34,440 bases of DNA. Source: Coleofasciculaceae cyanobacterium SM2_1_6 (lineage in GTDB: Bacteria; Cyanobacteriota; Cyanobacteriia; Cyanobacteriales; JAAUUE01). The notes under the pieces were generated by a model. It saw nothing but the letters and a program-made list of their open reading frames with translations, had not been told where the DNA came from and made no database searches. Where the stretch lies: the NCBI GenBank assembly GCA_012031635.1, contig JAAUUE010000006.1, positions 1 to 34,440 of the forward strand, read 5' to 3'. Position numbers and translations under genes: made by a program. Each line of letters opens with the position of its first letter. The stretch's first letter is position 1. This document shows positions 5,268 to 25,056 of the stretch, in pieces.

Positions 5268-6009
5268 TCAGAACGACAATGGGTTTAGGAGCGGTTGATT
5301 CACCAAATCCCTAAGTTCCACCGCTTGGAGAATACTTGCCCACTGGGGCAACGGCTGATTTCTCTGTAGTTGCGCCAGCAAAGCCACCGTATCATACCAA
5401 ATGCCCGCCCTACTCAAAAGTTCTGCCCGCTCGATCGCTGACATCCCCTGCAAAACCCTCGGTGATAGTTCCGGCGGAGTAGCCACTCTCTGGATCAAGC
5501 CATCCGCAACAATATCTTTGCTGCGATCGTTCCTTTGACAAATGATGGCAACCGACCAAATGTAACTTTTATTTAGCTCCAGACCCTGAAACCCAGAACT
5601 TTCTGGCAGAGAAATACTGGCAATCCCACTCCGACCATCGCCATTAAATCTAGTTAAGTAAATATCATTCCCAGCCAAATCACGCAGCACAAACTCGATC
5701 AGGGGCGGCGGCAGACCCTCTGGCATGGCTGGCAAATAAAATGAAAAATTAGGGTGAGATTTAATCGTTACCCCCAAAGGCATTCAGGGGAACTATCCCT
5801 ACCATCGGTGGGGAGTTTTCAGAAATTGGACACCCATAGGGCGATCGGGTTCCCGCCGGGCGGGTGCGTTCCGGAGTACCAACCTCCCTAGGGGGTTGAT
5901 AATTACCATTATTCCACTGGGCTAGCCCCGGAGCCGTCAAAGCACCAAAAAAGCAACTAGTCAGCCCCACCAGTAATAGCCGTTGGCAGGTTTGGGAAAG
6001 CAGAGTCAT
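5268..6009 (-). CDS. DUF928 exported protein, copy 1 (frameshifted as written)
   Basis: Starts MTLLSQTCQRLLLVGLT with a signal peptide ending near GLAQWNN, then the DUF928 pattern GTPERT...GCPISENSP, VPLNAFG, and in the next frame VTIKSHPNFSFYLP, SSGFQGLELNKSYIWSV, AIICQRNDRS, GIWYDTVALL, LQAVELRDLVNQPL. It matches copy 2 (6212-6979) along its whole length at roughly two thirds identity by eye. A run of five C (plus strand 5771-5775) holds one base too many: four would join NAFG directly to VTIKSHP. So this is either a one-base sequence error or a recent inactivation. DUF928 proteins are exported cyanobacterial proteins of unknown function. With copies 2 and 3 it forms a tandem family. Confidence 0.8.
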
Positions 6010-6211
6010 AAATATTATCCCTTGGGTTTGGATTGTGTTCGTGGGAGAAATTAAGAATCTGGATTAATTATCTAAAAAAACTGAGGCTCTAGGCAGTTCC
6101 TAAATCAAACTTCGATCGAGATGCTGACTAGAACCTAAGCAAACTCCTTTGCCCTCGTTCGACTGCGGGTACTCTGGCAAACTGGGAACTATTGATAACC
6201 CAAACTGGCAA

Positions 6212-6979
6212 CTAAGTATTAGGAACCCTCGCTGGGGTAGTAGAACTTCTGCCATCTAGTAGTGGTTGATTGATTAAATCTAGGAGTTCTACCGCCTGAA
6301 GAATATTTGTCCATTGGGTCAGGGGACGTTGGCGGTGAATTTCGGCTATCAACGCCACAGAATCATACCAAATACCAGCTCTGCTGAGGATTTCAGCCTC
6401 CTCAACTACCGATTTACCTTCCAAGGCACTAGGGGATAACTCCGGGGGAACCGCCACCCGCTGGATCAAACCTTCGGTGACAATATCTCTGCCTCGATCG
6501 TTCATTTGACAAATGATGGCAACCGACCACCGATAATCTTTATTCAGTTCCAAACCCTTGACCCCAGAACTTTCTGGCAGGGAAATACTGGCAATCCCGC
6601 CCTGACCATCGGTATTAAATCTGACTTTGTAAATATCATTGTCATCCAAATCCCGAATCACAAACTCCACCGGGGGAGGCGTTGCTCCCGCCGTCATCGT
6701 TGGTAAATAGAACAAGAAAGTCGGATGAGACTTGAGGGTCACTCCAAAGGTATTGTTGGGGACTACCGCCACCAGCGAGGGCGAAGTTTCCGCCACTGGA
6801 CACCCACGAGTACCCCTAGTCGCGCCTGACTGGGTACGGGTAGGAGTGCCGACATTCCCACTGGGGCGATAACTTCCACCATTCCACTGGGCTAGACTCG
6901 GCGCTGCCAGAGAACCTAGACACAAACTGGTAAGCCCGGCTAAGAATAACTTTTGGTAGGGTCGGAAAATCCTAGACAT
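6212..6979 (-). CDS. DUF928 exported protein, copy 2
   Basis: 255 residues, intact. It has an N-terminal signal peptide (MSRIFRPYQKLFLAGLTSL, small residues LAAPSLAQW at the likely cleavage site), then a Gly/Thr/Arg-rich linker, GCPVAETSP, and the DUF928 core: FGVTLKSHPTFLFYLPTM, PVEFVIRDLDDNDIY, GIASISLPESSG, YRWSVAIICQMNDRGRD, RAGIWYDSVALIAEI, ILQAVELLDLINQPLL. It probably acts in the periplasm. DUF928 genes are often found near TPR, CHAT/caspase and CHASE2 genes, and two caspase homologues are nearby, but no function is known. About 200 bases separate it from copy 1, and another ~220 separate it from copy 3, so the copies may have their own promoters. Confidence 0.85.
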   Translation of the reverse strand: MSRIFRPYQKLFLAGLTSLCLGSLAAPSLAQWNGGSYRPSGNVGTPTRTQSGATRGTRGCPVAETSPSLVAVVPNNTFGVTLKSHPTFLFYLPTMTAGATPPPVEFVIRDLDDNDIYKVRFNTDGQGGIASISLPESSGVKGLELNKDYRWSVAIICQMNDRGRDIVTEGLIQRVAVPPELSPSALEGKSVVEEAEILSRAGIWYDSVALIAEIHRQRPLTQWTNILQAVELLDLINQPLLDGRSSTTPARVPNT

Positions 6980-7201
6980 AATTTTGCTCCTTGTATATTT
7001 TGTAAGGTTTTGAGTTTGTATTTGGCTTTTAGGGTTTATTTTTAGACTGATTTTTCTCTAATAGAACTTAGACGAGGGTAAAAGGGAACTAGTAGATAGG
7101 GAACGAGGGACAAGAATAGAAAACTAGCAGTATTTGAGAATAATTTTAGTTGCCCAAGAACTGGGAGGAACTCTCAGAAATTCCAGCAATTCTCAGGAAT
7201 T

Positions 7202-8233
7202 TTACTGATCAGCACTAGAGGCCCTCAAGGAGATGGTTTGCTGAGCAATTTGTTCCAAGCCTACGGAGTTGAGTAGAGCCGCCCAGATAGCCTCAGTATT
7301 TTCTTCCTCTATCCTCGCCCCAACTTCCGGATTTAGAGGGGTAAGTACAGGGCTAGCTGTACCATTCGTTTGACTCGTCTGGCTAGGCTGGCGATCGGGC
7401 TGGAGACTAATCACCGAGGCAAGGGTTTCATACCAAAGACGAGCATTGGCATAGATAAAAACCTTCTCTGGAGGATTAGCTTGTTGGATTTGGGCTTGGA
7501 GGTCTGGATTGGATAGTAGACGCTGGACATAACCAGTGGTGTGCAAGTCACGAGTCCGATTATTGATGTCACAAATCAATGATACTTCCCATCGATAAAT
7601 ACTGCCCACTGTTAAGGGCTGAATCCCCACCTGATGAGGAATTTGCAAGCTCATCACCTGACCTTTTTCTGCTGGTACTGACCCTACAGGGGCTGGGGCG
7701 GGTTCTCCTTGGGTAGAACTGAGTTGAGGTTGAGAAAAAGCCGATCGAGCCAGAGTTGAGTTGCCCGGATTGAGAGCATACTGAACAGCATAGATTTCTT
7801 CGTCATTTTCATTAAACAGAATAAATTCCACCGCCTCCGCTAGGTTGGGGGGCATATACCAAGAAATTTGGGGGTAAGGTTCTTGAGTGATGCCAAAACC
7901 AGACGGGGGCACAAGGGCTGTGGGTGGGGGCAGGGCTGGGTTGATACAGTTCCCGCCGGGGTTCCTGCGTCCGCCACTCTGGGTACTCCGGGGCGAGCCA
8001 ATATTCCGGGGGGGGCGAAAATCACTCTGCTCCCACTGGTCGGGGATGCGTCTCGATCGATTGGCATTATTTTGTCCAGAGGCGATCGAGAGCATAGAGA
8101 GAAGGAAAACGATCGACACTACCGGGATCATCACCAAATTGCGACGACGGAGACCAAAAAGTCCGGGCAAGATTTGCAGATCACAGGGAAATTGATAATG
8201 GCCAGATGGCGGCTGTTTCTTGGGCATAGTCAT
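7202..8233 (-). CDS. DUF928 exported protein, copy 3 (long form)
   Basis: 343 residues. The N-terminus is longer and basic (FGLRRRN) before the hydrophobic export segment LVMIPVVSIVFLLSMLSIAS, so it may be a signal anchor. The DUF928 core follows: FRPPRNIGSPRSTQSGGRR, FGITQEPYPQISWYMPP, EAVEFILFNENDEEIY, YRWEVSLICDINNRTRD, YANARLWYETLASVI. Relative to copies 1 and 2 it has an insert of about 30 residues rich in Ala/Pro/Gly, and a longer Gln/Thr/Pro-rich C-terminal insert, so it diverged earlier than the 1/2 duplication. ATG at 8233 and at 8227 are both possible starts. Function unknown; exported location is inferred from the leader. Confidence 0.82.
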   Translation of the reverse strand: MTMPKKQPPSGHYQFPCDLQILPGLFGLRRRNLVMIPVVSIVFLLSMLSIASGQNNANRSRRIPDQWEQSDFRPPRNIGSPRSTQSGGRRNPGGNCINPALPPPTALVPPSGFGITQEPYPQISWYMPPNLAEAVEFILFNENDEEIYAVQYALNPGNSTLARSAFSQPQLSSTQGEPAPAPVGSVPAEKGQVMSLQIPHQVGIQPLTVGSIYRWEVSLICDINNRTRDLHTTGYVQRLLSNPDLQAQIQQANPPEKVFIYANARLWYETLASVISLQPDRQPSQTSQTNGTASPVLTPLNPEVGARIEEENTEAIWAALLNSVGLEQIAQQTISLRASSADQ

Positions 8234-13544: not shown

Positions 13545-15605
13545 CTAGGGAGATTTTTTTCCTTGTTGCCACAAAGCTATTGTTGTTTGGGCTTGAGTGT
13601 ATAAAGGAGTATTTTCTGGTAAGAAGGCAGCGGCGGCGATCGCTCCTTGAAAATCACCCCTACTTGCTCGCTGCTGAGCCATCTGCCAAATTTCCAAACT
13701 CCAGGTATTAATCAATTCTTGGGCGAGTTCGTAGCCCGGTTGTCCGGCGGGAATAGCCTTGTTTGTATCAATGGCTTGGCGATAGGAGTTGGCTTGATTG
13801 GGACGAATTAATCGTCTTGCCTTTTGAATTTGTTGGAGATTCACATCCCGTTGTTGGATCAATTGCTGCCAGCGACTAATCCAAGTCTGGGCATCTCGAT
13901 AAATAGCTTGATTAACGGGAGGAATGGTTTGCGCCGTGCTAATTGCCCCAGTCCAGTCGCCAGAGGTCGATCGACCATGCGCCAGATCCATGATCACCGT
14001 ACTCCACCGAGCAATATCCGCCTGAGCTTGTTTATACAAAGGGTCTGTGGGTTGGACTTGACTGGCGACTTGAATGGCTTGGCTAAATTGGGTGGCTTGA
14101 TCGCTCCGCAGCAGGCTTCTAGCACTTTCTAGGGTGACTTGGTTAGCCTGTTGCCTGTTTAAGGTTAAGGCCGGAGCGGCGGGATTAGTCACTGCGGGAG
14201 AGGGAACTGCTGGGGAGCTAGGGGCAATGGGAGTAGGGGAAGTTGCCGTGGCTGGGGAAACCGTGGGGCTGGGGGCAGTGGTGGGAGCAGGGCTAGGAGC
14301 CGCCGGACTAGGTGCAGTTGCGGTGGTGGGGGCGGGACGTGGGAGGCCGCAGGGCTAGGGGAAGTCGCCGTAGTCGGCGCAGTGGTGGGAACGGGCGGCA
14401 ACCCCGGAGAGACTGAGGGCGAAAGGGTCGGGGTAGCGATCGGGCCCGATTGTCCATCCCCAAGGAAAGCATCAAGGTTCCGCCAGAGGACTCCAAAGAC
14501 CATCAACAGAAACAGCAAAGTTGCACCACCAATCCACGGGAGGGCAGAATTAGAATTATCTTTTTTAGCCATAGATTTTGATTTTTTTGTGGGGGGATTA
14601 TCGGTAGATTTAGGGGGGGGAATCAGTAGTCGAACTAGCGGCTACATCGGCAGCAGGGGTAGTTCCGGGCTGAATTTTGGTATTGGGGGGCTGGATAGCG
14701 GTGCGTTCTGGTTGAATTTTGGTTTTTGCTTTAATAATTTTACTAGGGGGAACTTCAGGGGTGTCAGTACCCGATCGATAGCGGATCGGGTTAGGAGGAT
14801 GACTATCTAAACCATTTGCCCCCACCGCAGCCACAGCAGGAGGACGCTTGCCATTTTTAGAAAAGTTTTTGGCGGGCAGAATTAATTCTTCGAGGTCAGC
14901 AGTTTTGGCAAATTGCATCAGGGGATGCTGGGGAGGTGTGCCGTGGTGATTTCCCAATTCTGGCAAACGATCGACCAAGTACCGCCCCAGAGTTTGTAAA
15001 GTCAATTGCTGACGATGGTAGGATAGAGCCTCTCCCAAGGCTTGGGCAAATAATCCCCGTCCCAATTCTCGGCGCTCGTAGGAGCATTCTTGATTGCTCA
15101 CCGACTGGATCAAGTTTATATCTAATTCCTGGGCTAATTGACTAAACTGACTCCCCACCGGAGTTCCAGTCCCCAAGCCGGGAGAGCGATGGATATCGAG
15201 GAGGAGTAAAACTTGTTTGCCCTGTTGTTTCAGGCTCGTGAGGAGAGTTTCGGCACTAATTGCTTGCTGGGGAAGAGCCTCAAGACTGCCATCCATGGGT
15301 AATAGATAATCTTCGCCCCGCCAATGGACTCCATGCCCACTAAAAAAACACCAGAGCCAGTCTGAGTTTTCTAGGGCTGGGGGCAGGGAACTCAGTAAAT
15401 TAGTTAAATTGGCATAACTAGGATGAGCTGGTCGATCGACCACAGGAGGAGCCGCCTCGGTTGCTAACAGACAATTCTCCCGTGGCACCCCCAATTCTTC
15501 GACTAGAAACTTGACTAGTCCCTGGGCATCAGCCTCGGCGTGGCTCAGTGGTTCAACAAACTGATAGCGATTTATGCCAACTGCAATACAACCGTAATTT
15601 GTCAT
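13545..15605 (-). CDS. Membrane-anchored caspase homologue without catalytic Cys, fused to repeat region (frameshifted as written)
   Basis: Starts MTNYGCIAVGINRYQFVEPL, a C14 caspase fold. The catalytic His is kept (CFFSGHGVHW), but the place of the catalytic Cys reads LLLLDIHRSPG instead of DCCHSG, so it should be proteolytically dead. A Pro/Thr linker follows, then a transmembrane helix (WIGGATLLFLLMVFGVLW), a second Pro/Thr/Ala linker, and ~190 residues of helical repeats (LARQ/A-type units such as GDWTGAISTAQTIPP and GDFQGAIAAAAFLPE). Three reading frames must be joined: a run of eight G on the plus strand (14613-14620) is one too long, since seven lead straight into KSTDNPPTKKSKS before MAKKDNSN, and three G at 14341-14343 are one too few. 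Both are in homopolymers, so one ~686-residue gene is likely. Confidence 0.75.
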
Positions 15606-15708: not shown

Positions 15709-16476
15709 GTGAGTACTAACATGTTTAGGTGGTTAAAGGCGCTTTCCAATTATCGCCGGATAAATAGTCTATCTCTTCCCAATTTATCTGTTTCCAATTT
15801 ACCTGTAGCACAGTCTTTTCTGGGAACTATGCCAATATCTACCAGAAGTTTTGTGAAAAATTCTGTAAAAAATTCTCCGAAAAATTCTGTAACTTCTGTT
15901 GTCAGTCTCTCTATTACTGCCTTATCTATTAGTTTATCGGGTAATTTCTGGATATTGTTAGGGGCGACTGGTGGCTGGTTGATCCATGAAGCGATCGCTC
16001 CCCGCTCTGTGCAAGCCTCCACTGAAAGAACTACGGTGACTATCACCCGGCAATCTAATGAAAATTATCAAAGTATGCTCCGGCGCGCCGAAACCGCCGC
16101 AAGGGCAGCAGTCCAGAGGAGTTTCGATCGAGAAGTTTTAACGACCAATGTGGTGGTGACGGTGATCGGGCAGAACGGTGGAGCCATTACCCCCATGCTA
16201 TCCATCGAGGTGAGTCGGCAAAACTGGCGGACTAGCCCCAGCCCCCAACAGTGGGCGACCTATTTTAACGAGGCTCAAGCCCTCCTGATTCCCACCGCTA
16301 CTGCGACTACCGCAACTCCAGCAACGACCCCTAGAGCAACTCCAGCAACTACCCCTAGACCCGCCCCCGTGGTAGGTAATCCCCTCAACCCTAGTAGCAT
16401 CAACGGAACCACTCCCTCTAGTCCAGAGAGAAATGTCGATACGCCATCGGCGGAAGAAGAATTGGTGATTTTTTAG
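15709..16476 (+). CDS. Exported protein of unknown function
   Basis: 255 residues. The start is GTG 15709 or, equally possible, ATG 15721 (MFRWLKAL). A basic N-terminus with a short Lys-Asn-Ser repeat (VKNSVKNSPKNSV) leads to a hydrophobic segment ITALSISLSGNFWILLGA, suggesting export or an anchor. The middle ~100 residues form a compact alpha/beta part: TVTITRQSNENYQSMLRRAE, TAARAAVQRSFDREV, NVVVTVIGQNGGAITPMLSI, VSRQNW. The last ~60 are Thr/Pro/Ala-rich with a repeated ATPATTPR-type unit, ending acidic. I recognise it only as a cyanobacterial type of small exported protein. It is divergent from the caspase homologue, 103 bases apart. Confidence 0.7.
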   Translation: MSTNMFRWLKALSNYRRINSLSLPNLSVSNLPVAQSFLGTMPISTRSFVKNSVKNSPKNSVTSVVSLSITALSISLSGNFWILLGATGGWLIHEAIAPRSVQASTERTTVTITRQSNENYQSMLRRAETAARAAVQRSFDREVLTTNVVVTVIGQNGGAITPMLSIEVSRQNWRTSPSPQQWATYFNEAQALLIPTATATTATPATTPRATPATTPRPAPVVGNPLNPSSINGTTPSSPERNVDTPSAEEELVIF

Positions 16477-16716: not shown

Positions 16717-19209
16717 ATGCGAGTATCAGAGGGCGATCGATCAATAGCAGCTAGTCAAGATCAAGAAAATCTGGACTATGCCCTGTTGTATCGCCTCCAT
16801 CAGGCTCAAGTTGCATGGAATCACCTCAATAAAAAACTGACCCGCCGCCTACAGCAGTCCTTAAGTTTGCCGGAGATTTTGCAAACCACCGCCGAGGAAG
16901 TAAATAGTTTATTGGGATGCGATCGCCTTCTTTTCTATAGGTTTGACTCCGACTGGAGTGGTCAAATTATTGTGGAATCAGTGTCTGCGCCCCCATGGTC
17001 ACTGTTGAATCAGACAGTGCAGGATTCTTGTCTTCGTACTCATTGGCTCAATCCCTGCCCAGAAGAAGAATTTAGGGCGATCGAAGATGTCCTCAACGCT
17101 AGTCTGATCCCCTGTTATGGAGAATTTCTAGCCCGGTTTCAAGTTAGAGCCTATCTGGTGATGCCAATTTTCCGGGAATCTCATCTCTGGGGTTTACTAA
17201 TTGCCCATAGCTGCACAGCCCCTCGCCAGTGGCAAGTCCCAGAAATTGCAGGACTACAACAAACCGCCATTAATATCGGGCTTGCTCTCCAACAGTCATC
17301 CCTAGTCGAACAACTCCAAACCACCACAGCAGACCTCAACCTCCAAGTTGCCTTTCGGACAGAAAAACTAGAGCGGACTAACCAAGCCCTAGCCAAGGAG
17401 AGCCAAAAGCACTATCAAGCAACTATCGAACTCGCCCAAAGAGAAGAATTTTTACGGCAGGTATTGGATAGTCTCTTGACCTTTGTGGGTGTCTTGACTC
17501 CCGATGGGATTTTGGTCGAAATCAACCAGTATCCCCTAAATGTGGCTGGACTCCGCCGGGAAGATGTCCTTAATCAACCCTTGGCAGCAACTTACTGGTG
17601 GGTATATTCCCCCACAGCCCAGGCTCAAATTCGGGGGGCGATCTACCAAGCGAATCAGGGGATCTTCGTCAAATTTGATATCCCCATTCAAATTCAGGGG
17701 GGCGATCAGGTGCTCCTTGAGTTTTCCCTTAACCCCCTAAAAAACGCTCCGGGACAAATTACCCATCTCATTTTCTCTGGTATTGATATCACCGATCGCA
17801 AACAAACAGAATTAGCTCTCCAGCAGAGCGAAGCTAAAAATCAAGCCCTGATTCAAGCCATCCCTGATTTCCTGATCCAGATGCGCCGGGATGGTTTACA
17901 ACTTCAGGTAATTAATGAAGGTTTAATTCACTATCTCCGTCCTAAAAACGATCGTCCCCAGTACCATATCACCGAAGCCTTGCCCCCAGAAATTGCTCAA
18001 GAGCGAATTCACCTAGCCCAAATTGCGATCGCCACTGGACAGACCCAGTATCACGAATATAAATTTGTAGATCAAGGCAGTACTTACTATGAAGAAGCCC
18101 GCATTGCTCCCTTGTGGAATGAGGAAGTATTGGTGGTCGTCCGGGATATTACCAGCCGCAAACAAAATGAGCTAAAACTCCAACAGGCAAATCAAGAACT
18201 GGAGACTTCTATTGCAAATCTCCAACAGCGCAATCAAGAAATGCTCAGACTCAATGAGATGAGTGAATTTCTCCAATCCTGCTTGACGGAAGCAGAAGCC
18301 TGTCAGGCGATCGCCAATTTAGTTAAACCCCTCTTCCCCCACTGTGCCGGGAGACTCTTTATCATTGATGGCTCCCAGAATTTAGTCAAAAATGTGGGAA
18401 GTTGGGGTGATTATCTATGCTCTGTGCCGGAGTTTTTTCCCCAAGATTGTTGGGCTTTACGGCGGGGGAGAATTCACTTAGTAGAGTTGTTGAATCTGGG
18501 ATTGTACTGTCACCACGTCCCCCAAGATGCAGGGATTGCCACCACTCTCTGTATTCCCATGATTACCCAAGGGGAAACTATGGGCTTATTTTATCTCAGT
18601 ACCAAAATAACCGCCGCTTTACCAGCAGCCAAGCAACAACTAGGTCGCACCGTTGCCGAACAGTTAGCTCTGGCGATCGCCAACCTCCGTCTCCGGGAAA
18701 CCCTCCAAAATCGCAGCATCCGGGATTCCCTCACTGGACTGTTTAATCGCCGCTACCTAGAAGAAATCCTGATCCAAGAACTTGCCCGCGCCCAACGCAA
18801 ACATCACTCCCTTAGCTTGATCATGCTGGACATTGACCACTTCAAACTATTCAACGATACCTACGGTCATGAAGTGGGCGATTATGTCCTCCAATCCGTT
18901 GGGCAACTCCTCCGGGAAAGCATCCGGGATTCGGATACTGCCTGTCGCTATGGTGGGGAAGAAATAGTTCTAGTTTTACCAGAAATCTCCCTAGACCAAG
19001 CTCAAATCAAAGCAGAAGGAATACGGCGGGCGATCGCCCAACTGCCCCTATCCCACAATGGACAAAGTTTATTCCCTCTGACCATCTCCCTAGGGGTGGC
19101 AGCCTTCCCCCAACACGGAACTACTGGGGCAGCAGTGATCCAAGCGGCTGATGCTGCCCTCTACCGAGCCAAAGCCGCCGGACGAAACCAAGTCATTGTG
19201 GCTCTTTAG
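16717..19209 (+). CDS. Cyanobacteriochrome-type GAF - PAS - PAS - GAF - GGDEF diguanylate cyclase
   Basis: 830 residues. GAF1 (~45-200) looks like a bilin-binding cyanobacteriochrome domain: Cys105 in VQDSCL and Cys133 in LIPCYGEFLARFQVRAYLV. The two cysteines are 28 residues apart, the spacing known for DXCF-type cyanobacteriochromes such as TePixJ (DXCF Cys494, canonical Cys522). Here the motif is DSCL rather than DXCF, and Tyr134 replaces the usual His. PAS domains lie at ~245-365 and ~370-490 (each ends in DIT.RKQ), a coiled linker follows, and GAF2 is at ~515-650. The C-terminal GGDEF has GGEEI at ~746-750 with RDSD (I-site RxxD) at 737-740, so it should make cyclic di-GMP with product inhibition. 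It is likely a light-regulated signalling enzyme (inference). Confidence 0.85.
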   Translation: MRVSEGDRSIAASQDQENLDYALLYRLHQAQVAWNHLNKKLTRRLQQSLSLPEILQTTAEEVNSLLGCDRLLFYRFDSDWSGQIIVESVSAPPWSLLNQTVQDSCLRTHWLNPCPEEEFRAIEDVLNASLIPCYGEFLARFQVRAYLVMPIFRESHLWGLLIAHSCTAPRQWQVPEIAGLQQTAINIGLALQQSSLVEQLQTTTADLNLQVAFRTEKLERTNQALAKESQKHYQATIELAQREEFLRQVLDSLLTFVGVLTPDGILVEINQYPLNVAGLRREDVLNQPLAATYWWVYSPTAQAQIRGAIYQANQGIFVKFDIPIQIQGGDQVLLEFSLNPLKNAPGQITHLIFSGIDITDRKQTELALQQSEAKNQALIQAIPDFLIQMRRDGLQLQVINEGLIHYLRPKNDRPQYHITEALPPEIAQERIHLAQIAIATGQTQYHEYKFVDQGSTYYEEARIAPLWNEEVLVVVRDITSRKQNELKLQQANQELETSIANLQQRNQEMLRLNEMSEFLQSCLTEAEACQAIANLVKPLFPHCAGRLFIIDGSQNLVKNVGSWGDYLCSVPEFFPQDCWALRRGRIHLVELLNLGLYCHHVPQDAGIATTLCIPMITQGETMGLFYLSTKITAALPAAKQQLGRTVAEQLALAIANLRLRETLQNRSIRDSLTGLFNRRYLEEILIQELARAQRKHHSLSLIMLDIDHFKLFNDTYGHEVGDYVLQSVGQLLRESIRDSDTACRYGGEEIVLVLPEISLDQAQIKAEGIRRAIAQLPLSHNGQSLFPLTISLGVAAFPQHGTTGAAVIQAADAALYRAKAAGRNQVIVAL

Positions 19210-22232: not shown

Positions 22233-22625
22233 TTAAGGAACTACGGCAATACATTCGATTTCTACTAAGACATCCTTAGGGAGGCGGGCCACTTCGACGG
22301 TGGCTCTGGCGGGGGCTTGTCCTTCGGTGAAATAAAGAGCATAGACGGCATTCATGGCGGGAAAGTCTTCCATATTTTTGAGAAACACCGTAGTTTTCAC
22401 CACTTCCTGCCAACCAGTGCCGCCAGCTTTGAGTACCGCCGTGAGATTGTGCATTACTTGTTCCGTTTGCTTGGTTACATCTCCCGTACCAATGATTTCT
22501 CCACTCAGGGGATCGAGGGGAATTTGTCCCGCCGTAAATAGGAGTTTGCCGGTAGAAATAATGGCTTGATTGTAGGGGCCAACGGGGGCGGGGGCTTGGT
22601 CAGTACGGATAATTTGTTTGGTCAT
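22233..22625 (-). CDS. ridA: RidA family enamine/imine deaminase
   Basis: 130 residues starting MTKQIIRTDQAPAPVGPYNQ, the classical RidA N-terminus. It is followed by LLFTAGQIPLDP, TEQVMHNLTAVLKAGG, VVKTTVFLKNMEDFPAMNAVY and the signature ARATVEVARLPKDVLVEIEC with the Arg that binds the substrate carboxylate. RidA hydrolyses reactive enamine/imine intermediates, such as 2-aminoacrylate, released by PLP enzymes. The start codon ATG overlaps the stop TGA of the upstream PEP-synthase-like gene (ATGA), so the two are translationally coupled. An in-frame extension upstream to 22736 exists but lies inside that gene and is not expected to be used. It is full length. Confidence 0.95.
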   Translation of the reverse strand: MTKQIIRTDQAPAPVGPYNQAIISTGKLLFTAGQIPLDPLSGEIIGTGDVTKQTEQVMHNLTAVLKAGGTGWQEVVKTTVFLKNMEDFPAMNAVYALYFTEGQAPARATVEVARLPKDVLVEIECIAVVP

Positions 22626-25056
22626 AGATTCAAATTGCGGGCTAGATTTAATAACAGTTTTTGTTCGGCTTGATGGATCGATCGCTGCACCTGCTCTAGG
22701 GCGGGGACATCTACAGAAATGGAAGTAATTCCCCACCGCACCAGTTGCTCCACCAACTCAGGATAGTTTACCGGAGCTTGACCACAGATGGAACAGGGAA
22801 TATTTAATTTCCGAGCCGTGGTCACTAGTTGCTCCATCACCGCCACCATTGCCGGATGCCCGGCATTGAGCATACTCGTCCCGCCCTGGTCTCGATCGAT
22901 CCCCAAAATTAACTGGGTGAGGTCGTTGCTACCAATGGAAATCCCCTGGACTCCTGCTTTTACATAATCCTCCAACAGAAAAATCACCGAAGGCACTTCC
23001 GCCATGATCCACAACTGGAACTGGGGCTGGGCTGACAGCCCCACGGCTTGAACACGTTGGCGACAAAACTTAAATTCCTCCACCGTCCGCACAAAGGGCA
23101 GGAGCAGAGAAATATTGCCATAGCCCCGGCGCTGGACTTCTCGCAGAGCTGCCAACTCCCAGTCAAATAGCTGCGGATTGAGGGTATAGCGGAGGGTACC
23201 CCGTCTGCCGAGGACGGGATTTGCTTCTGGGGGTTCTTGGGTGTAGAGGGTGGGAAATTCGGTCGATCGCCAGTCCGCCGATCGATAAAATACAGGACGG
23301 GGAGCAAAGGCTGCGGTAAACTCCGTGATCTGATCCGCAAGGTTGGTAATCACCTGTTGGGCAACCAGAGGCAGCTGATTAGTCTGTTGAGCGATGAAAC
23401 CCAAGCGATTAATTTCTTGGAAGTTATCTAAATTGTGGTTGTGGAGAATCTCCGAGAGGATGAGTTCCGATCGCAACAATCCCACCCCATCAAAGGGCAA
23501 CTGCGCCGCCGTCAAAACTTTTTGGGGCTGACTCAGGTTCACCATCAACTTCGTCCCGGTGATGGGATTTCCCCAGCGGTCTTTTCTAGGGGCGGGGATT
23601 TCTGAGGGGCGGGGGTTTTCTGTCAGGGGTACTAATTTTGGGGCAATCTCTCCAACACCTGACCCGACTGCCGATAGACAATTCCCTGATCGCCATCGAG
23701 GGTTAAATCTTCCCCCGTTTGAATCAACTGGGTTGCCGCCGTCACCCCCACCACCGCCGGAATCCCCAACTCCCGGGCAATGATCGCTCCATGACTAGTC
23801 ATCCCCCCCTGCTCGGTGATAATCCCCGCCGCATCTCTCAGCAAAGGCAACCATTCCGGCAACACGATCTCCGCCACCAGGATTTTCCCGGACAAACCCA
23901 GAGGTTGAGCAGGAGCCTGAGTCAAGAGCCGAGACGCTGTTCCCTCATTTTCCTTAACTTTGCCATGCTCATAACCCTCCCGAAGATTCCCCAAGGCAGC
24001 CCCCACAACTATAACTTGGGCAGTTCCCCTAGCTTCCCCCCGGGCTACTCCCACCCCCTGCAAAGGTGCGAGGGCATTCACCACTCTACCTTGGGAAATC
24101 CGGGGTGCAAAACTCCTAATGGCTAGATGGGAGAGATGGGAGTTTTCAGGAGGTGAAATCTGCCAAGTCAAGCTAAAGTGAGGCATGATCATTTTCTGGA
24201 TTTGCTTACAAATTTGGCTGAGGCGGGCGAGATCCTCCTTAGAGAGGCTGTAGCTTTGTTGTTGGCTGGGACTGAGGAGGTAGGGGGTCAAGCATTCTAG
24301 GGGACTGGATTCTAGACTTGGTAAATTTAGATGGTAGCCCCGGGTTTTTGAGCCTAACTGTTGTTTGAGGACAATCTCTGACTGGGGGTGAATGGTGTAG
24401 CGATCGGGCAGGACTTCCCCTCGATCGATGGCAAAGGGAAATCCCCACGTTGACTCAATGCATAACTGCTCCGGCTGCGCTGCCACCGTCCCTGAGGCGA
24501 TCGTCTCCCCCAAGGGCTGTACCAACACCGCCAGATTTACCTGAGATAGTTTCAAGCCTGTCTGCCGCCAACAAAACAAATGATGCGCCCGAAACAATTG
24601 CCCCCAGACCTGCTTCAGCCCCGCCATCACCGCCTCAGACTGTGCTGGACAAACTACCGTTTCGAGAATCTCCGCTGGAGCCGGAAACCCTTCATGCTGT
24701 AAAAAAGGCTGCAAGATTACCAAGGGTGTAGAGATTTTTTGTAGTTGCTCCGTCAGAGCTTCTAGCCAAAAGGCGGGGGGACTGCCTTGGAGGATGCGGC
24801 GGCGCAGTCTTTGGGCGACATCCCGTAACTGGCGAGACTGATGCACATCCAAATGCAGATCAGAATCATGGAGATCCGCCAAAAGAACCTCTGATTCTCC
24901 CAAAACTTCGAGGTATTGCCACAGCACATCCCCCGGCAACACAAAACCATTCACCACTGGGTAGCCGTGGCGGTGGAGTTGACTTAAATAAAACGCCTGA
25001 TCTCGGTAGGGGAAGTTTTCTCCCAAGGATTGATCTAGCCAGTACAAATTATCCAC
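22622..25056 (-). CDS. Phosphoenolpyruvate synthase-like protein (frameshifted as written)
   Basis: About 811 codons. The swivelling phosphohistidine domain has the active His in GGMTSHGAIIARELGIPAVVG. The C-terminal PEP/pyruvate barrel keeps GVGLLRSE, FYRSADWRSTEFPTL, the basic start LGRRG, IGSNDLTQLILGIDRD and ICGQAP with its catalytic Cys. The N-terminal ATP-grasp part is unusual: the normal RSSATAED and FAGQ motifs are missing (STPLVILQPFLQHEGFPAP stands there), so nucleotide binding is doubtful. A one-base loss in a four-G run (plus 23640-23643) splits the frame after ERLPQ; five would give ERLPPKLVPLTENP, which continues unbroken to the barrel. It is coupled to ridA by an ATGA overlap. 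It could convert pyruvate and PEP, or be a regulatory paralogue. Confidence 0.8.

Follow-up and report, generated by a model that had tools for sequence, protein, structure and literature searches.

We find that an open reading frame (ORF) in the window, the whole 34,440-nucleotide stretch of DNA from Coleofasciculaceae cyanobacterium SM2_1_6 analyzed here, encodes a predicted light sensor in which a GAF domain of the DXCF cyanobacteriochrome lineage is joined to a diguanylate cyclase. We put the probability that the former controls the latter by the mechanism proposed below at roughly 85%. If regarded as a diguanylate cyclase with a blue-sensing domain of the DXCF lineage, the protein would be one more of a known kind; what appears to be new, going by sequence, is a candidate three-cysteine pocket, uniting in one domain the nucleophile positions of separate dual-Cys classes.

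A DXCF-lineage GAF domain joined to a predicted cyclase

The ORF (16717..19209, + strand; ATG start, 830 aa) has the layout cyanobacteriochrome GAF-PAS-PAS-GAF-GGDEF, with Pfam matches to GAF, PAS_4 (two stretches), GAF_2, and GGDEF. The first GAF domain, GAF1 (aa 36-200; 16822..17316, +), is followed by PAS 1 (aa 244-365; 17446..17811, +), PAS 2 (about aa 371-485; 17827..18171, +; PAS_4, with limits from alignment with the orthologue described below), GAF2 (aa 524-655; 18286..18681, +), and the GGDEF domain (aa 666-830; 18712..19206, +). The last of these is a predicted diguanylate cyclase, scoring 196.8 bits against TIGR00254 (cut-off 37.4) and carrying a catalytic signature of the GG(D/E)EF type, GGEEI (aa 746-750; 18952..18966, +). 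Its inhibitory RxxD site, RDSD (aa 737-740; 18925..18936, +), starts at residue 737 and GGEE at 746, the canonical RxxD-x5-GG spacing, which bears out the statement of an earlier note on this DNA that both sites are intact.

Several lines of evidence identify GAF1 as a bilin-type domain. Cyanobacteriochromes are its best sequence matches in the PDB, at E values of 5e-33 to 3e-25 (4.7e-33 for 6oap and 1.4e-26 for TePixJ, 3vv4), so the likeness is not due to chance. Foldseek matched the AlphaFold model of GAF1 (pLDDT 85.5, pTM 0.82; least certain around Cys105-Cys114, with a pLDDT of about 64) to TePixJ (4glq, TMt 0.89), AnPixJ (3w2z, TMt 0.88), and 6oap. The protein has cysteines at 68, 105, 114, 133, and 166, among others, and in GAF1 the predicted canonical bilin-attachment residue, Cys133, stands in register and is followed by Tyr134 (17113..17118, +; motif PCYGEFL). 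The second Cys, Cys105, lies two residues after the Asp of a variant DXCF motif, DSCL (aa 103-106; 17023..17034, +), and 28 residues before the canonical Cys. The TePixJ row of 3vv4 (DPCF...ECH; aligned as DPCFREHWVEAY...LTECH) has the same 28-residue spacing and aligns without a gap, in agreement with the earlier note, which had likened the spacing of DSCL and PCYGEFL to that of TePixJ and had proposed such an alignment with DXCF cyanobacteriochromes as a check. All 20 GAF domains of alignment A1 retain both the DXCF Asp and the canonical Cys, the Cys133 column being invariant.

A quick tree of 137 rows with many weak forks pairs GAF1 with its orthologue (support, 100) and places the pair within a 25-row group (support, 88) in which almost every member has a DXCF-type motif, apart from the red/green group of NpR6012g4 and Slr1393g3; GAF2 of the same protein falls outside the bilin GAF domains. 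Here, as in the tree below, rows that did not cover most of the domain or were contained in another row had been removed. GAF1 thus groups with DXCF-type domains and not with non-bilin ones; a grouping with the latter is what the earlier note had named as refuting its proposal. Taken together, alignment, AlphaFold/Foldseek, and tree support GAF1 being a dual-Cys GAF domain of the DXCF lineage, and the proposal of a dual-Cys cyanobacteriochrome joined to a GGDEF domain with apparently intact motifs holds. The literal DXCF motif is absent, with Leu106 in place of Phe; since Leu is found there in 8 of 109 dual-Cys GAF domains and the orthologue has Phe, we file GAF1 as DXCF lineage with a variant motif.

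The orthologue, of 1,218 residues, is found in a genome of the same genus (G001), where the upstream gene order is conserved, and carries the motifs DPCF, NPYVEGE, and CYGEFL, with Tyr at the position of Cys114. By alignment, it (L080 1062-4715, -) exceeds the window protein by about three PAS modules, a clean gain or loss close to repeats of a DITDRKQ-like linker. The order GAF-PAS(n)-GAF-GGDEF recurs in 6 of 8 scanned proteins, one of which is the orthologue, the remaining two being a histidine kinase and a short GAF-PAS ORF. A first scan of genome contigs with the single protein as query returned no relative, and a plasmid search gave distant relatives only (best row, 40 percent).

With respect to selection, GAF1 differs from its orthologue with a dN of 0.154 and a dS of 0.693 (dN/dS 0.22, similar to the PAS and GAF2 domains), compared to a dN of 0.075 and a dS of 0.644 for the GGDEF domain. 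GAF1 is the faster evolving of the two (75 versus 86 percent identity), and purifying selection acts on it as it does on the other sensor domains. A pseudogene or decaying GAF1 was rejected because of the excess of dS over dN.

In the neighborhood of the sensor gene, we observe directly upstream a gene for a 255-aa protein (15709-16476, +; 69 percent identity in G001), which gave no Pfam or NCBIfam match, and nearby a caspase-domain (Peptidase_C14) protein (14610-15605, -; 90 percent identity in G001). Synteny with the G001 contig stops at the sensor gene (window 19249 onward), and a DUF2252 gene and almost everything beyond 19249 had no counterpart within the 60 kb of that contig compared. 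Elsewhere in the window, three adjoining ORFs of 171, 255, and 343 aa (5268-8233, -) all match DUF928, a tandem family also seen in G001, and two adjoining ORFs (22622-25056, -) share out the domains of one PEP-synthase-like enzyme, one having the C-terminal domain (PEP-utilizers_C) and the other the N-terminal and mobile domains (PPDK_N and PEP-utilizers; Pfam), as a split gene or frameshift.

Motif variants and a third pocket cysteine

The earlier note had derived an unusual color tuning from two substitutions, Leu after the second Cys and Tyr after the canonical Cys. We aligned 133 rows, after removal of repeats and of rows not spanning the motif region; they were gathered by similarity to GAF1 and by patterns from its relatives and are thus an unfair sample of all cyanobacteriochromes. 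Cys is present at both positions in 109 rows (the window is counted in all figures). In this set, the second Cys is followed by Phe in 97 rows, Leu in 8, Ile in 2, and Glu and Cys in 1 each, and the canonical Cys by His in 73 and Tyr in 36. The orthologue combines DPCF with CY, and we therefore do not regard either variant as special, nor the color argument as sustained. A Tyr that follows the canonical Cys has a bearing on the formation of phycoviolobilin, a point on which no argument here relies. Insert-Cys proteins also have Leu for the Phe of DXCF, and their authors assign this Leu no role in color (PMC5240096).

The earlier list of variants was correct in its sequence statements; it was incomplete, leaving out the rarest change, Cys114 of NPCPEEE (TGC; 17056..17058, +). 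This third pocket cysteine stands in a column that is Tyr in TePixJ, NpR6012g4, and 6oap, 19 residues before the canonical Cys, just as AnPixJ Tyr302 precedes Cys321. In the 109 dual-Cys domains, the position is Tyr in 87, Phe in 14, and His in 2, with Cys (the window), Thr, Ala, Asn, Ile, and Asp once each; going by these counts, the two substitutions named earlier are ordinary and Cys114 is not. Should GAF1 be spectrally unusual at all, Cys114 would be a likelier cause than either of those substitutions.

Tyr302 lies within the quantum (QM) region around the bilin in AnPixJ (PMC7727823), and in AM1_1186g2 the second Cys, Cys2510, at an unusual alpha3 position, is linked to C10 once the 15E photoproduct has formed (PMC6628166). 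The BV4 residues are H293, F308, H318, and I336 in AnPixJg2 (PMC8156171) and include Phe2501, Tyr2516, and Leu2526 in AM1_1186g2 (PMC6628166); in both proteins three of these residues are spaced by 15 and then 10, so that the two numberings differ by 2208 and Cys2510 falls at position 302. By this published numbering, and assuming no indel, we infer that Cys114 occupies the position of Cys2510, and Asn2508-Pro2509-Cys2510 indeed matches Asn112-Pro113-Cys114 of GAF1. With Cys114 at the position of a Cys that adds to C10, the pocket would hold three candidate bilin-linked cysteines.

In a DNA-level search of the class genomes, the three-Cys form was matched in 2/388, the Tyr form in 180/388, and the His form in 0/388, all three patterns missing part of the GAF domains because they require Ala-Ile-x-Asp. 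A looser pattern matched 11/371 order genomes, of which five (the window genome, G564, G452, G573, and G570) hold a true three-Cys bilin GAF domain and the other six gave chance matches. With G265, this brings the three-Cys GAF domains to six, and uniqueness of Cys114 to the window was rejected. The five further domains with a DXCF/L Cys, a Cys at the 302 position, and the canonical Cys lie, by sequence, at L177 1300-1788, L170 1300-1782, L171 1315-1797, L172 1303-1818, and L167 421-918; that of G570 is also DXCL, and the other readable three-Cys ORFs are mostly histidine-kinase-like, as judged by eye. On a tree of 141 rows, from which both GAF2 rows and two long rows of L148 had also been left out, Cys at the position of Cys114 requires at least four changes, with L040 of the window's own genome, whose Cys in this column stands beside a gap and is not accompanied by a second Cys, scored as not Cys.

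Proposed mechanism and competing readings

The best-supported reading is that GAF1 would sense blue light in its dark state and form a green or orange photoproduct; the analysis itself establishes the lineage, the cysteines and their register, the cyclase motifs, the genes for bilin synthesis, purifying selection, and a syntenic orthologue, and covalent attachment, a photocycle, and the direction of control are what we infer from relatives that have been studied. Phycocyanobilin would be made in the cell itself, since the genome encodes a single heme oxygenase and a single bilin reductase of the ferredoxin-dependent type. The bilin would be bonded through ring A to Cys133, and in the dark 15Z state Cys105 would add to C10, shortening the conjugated system and thereby giving blue or violet absorption. 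Light would then isomerize the 15,16 bond and release Cys105, yielding a longer-wave form, green if the bilin has been isomerized to phycoviolobilin and orange if not. The signal would pass along the PAS-PAS-GAF linker to a GGDEF dimer, so as to raise or lower c-di-GMP; we count 21 GGDEF matches in the genome. Three observations count against this reading: there are only two PilZ matches in the genome, both in one ORF; Leu106 and Cys114 both alter positions of the pocket; and the model is least certain around Cys105-Cys114. At the beta2 position, which is Phe in NpR6012g4, GAF1 has Ile84 in the PDB alignment; we take the NpR6012g4 residue aligned with Ile84 to be the beta2 Phe. A teal-type trapped twist is therefore less likely in GAF1, given the role described for that position (PMC5240096).

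Within the reading of GAF1 as a blue-light sensor, the likeliest case is that Cys114 has replaced the pocket Tyr and is tolerated there, although it may have a role, standing as it does where AM1_1186g2 has a Cys that attacks C10. The alternative to be weighed most seriously, which we nevertheless consider doubtful, is a triple-Cys photocycle in which Cys105 would add to C10 in 15Z and Cys114 in 15E, like Cys2510 of AM1_1186g2. The photoproduct would then also be blue or violet, or a green or orange form would be transient, fading in the dark. The alignment with Tyr302, in the QM region of the chromophore, the numbering that puts Cys2510 at 302, the N-P-C common to both proteins, and the recurrence of all three cysteines in five further GAF domains, by at least four changes on the tree, speak for it. 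However, N-P is also found in the orthologue (NPY), so that the novelty is confined to the Cys; Phe (14/109) and other residues are tolerated at the position, and a change there may therefore be neutral; and Cys is not clearly favored over His, being ahead among genomes (2/388 versus 0/388) but behind in the aligned set (1 versus 2 of 109). In addition, the equivalence of Cys2510 and 302 assumes no indel, AM1_1186g2 being compared by published numbering only. The general form of this idea, that two cysteines of different dual-Cys classes add to the C10 of one bilin, one per isomer, making both states blue-shifted or timing the photoproduct by the second adduct, and that this has arisen several times, is to our minds likewise doubtful.

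Considerably less probable is a redox switch, in which a Cys105-Cys114 disulfide, or other oxidation of Cys114, would make the second linkage, and with it blue sensing, redox dependent: only nine residues separate the two on the DXCF segment, which the model predicts least rigidly, yet that same segment is of low model confidence. We give as little credence to GAF1 no longer being a photosensor and the protein being a constitutive or PAS-controlled cyclase. Leu106 and Cys114 do differ from the DPCF and NPY of the sister protein, and GAF1 evolves faster than the GGDEF domain, but its dN/dS resembles the values for the PAS and GAF2 domains, and Asp103, Cys105, and Cys133 are retained. Finally, Cys114 may reflect a sequencing or assembly error, given that the genome of the window consists of 449 contigs at 87 percent completeness and that neither strict three-Cys match is in a better-class genome (0/333), but four of the five other three-Cys GAF domains come from genomes with a stated completeness of 90 to 99 percent.

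Because both nucleophile positions stand in one domain, single-Cys mutations would assign the C10 bond of each isomer to its Cys and thereby directly test how such sensors choose their blue states, with the sister species, Tyr at this position, as a natural control.

Relation to known systems

Literature searches for cyanobacteriochromes with a triple or third Cys found none among the papers listed; one of them listed 15 of 324 papers and is weak for that reason, and subscription journals were mostly outside their scope. Blue-light cyanobacteriochrome cyclases are already known: SesA is a cyanobacteriochrome with a GGDEF domain that makes c-di-GMP in blue light (PMC9090330). The window protein shares with SesA and SesC of Thermosynechococcus the joining of a cyanobacteriochrome to a c-di-GMP-making output; SesC also degrades c-di-GMP (PMC9090330), whereas Pfam found no EAL domain in the 830-aa protein.

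Insert-Cys cyanobacteriochromes resemble GAF1 in the Leu of their DXCF motif but have their second Cys in an insertion loop (PMC5240096), whereas GAF1 aligns with TePixJ at the motif without an insertion. GAF1 has in common with AM1_1186g2, a red/blue dual-Cys sensor, a Cys at the AnPixJ 302 position after Asn-Pro, by spacing and published numbering (PMC6628166). AM1_1186g2 is of the XRG lineage and, going by its description as dual-Cys with the second Cys at a unique alpha3 position, does not have the DXCF Cys; since GAF1 is not of that lineage on the tree, it is not a member of the AM1_1186g2 type. The TePixJ GAF domain (3vv4/4glq) agrees with GAF1 in its fold, in having the DXCF Asp and second Cys, and in the 28-residue distance from there to the canonical Cys. 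GAF1 differs from it in Leu for Phe, Tyr after the canonical Cys, and Cys114 for Tyr, and its output is PAS-GAF-GGDEF, whereas TePixJ is a methyl-accepting chemotaxis protein in the PDB entries.
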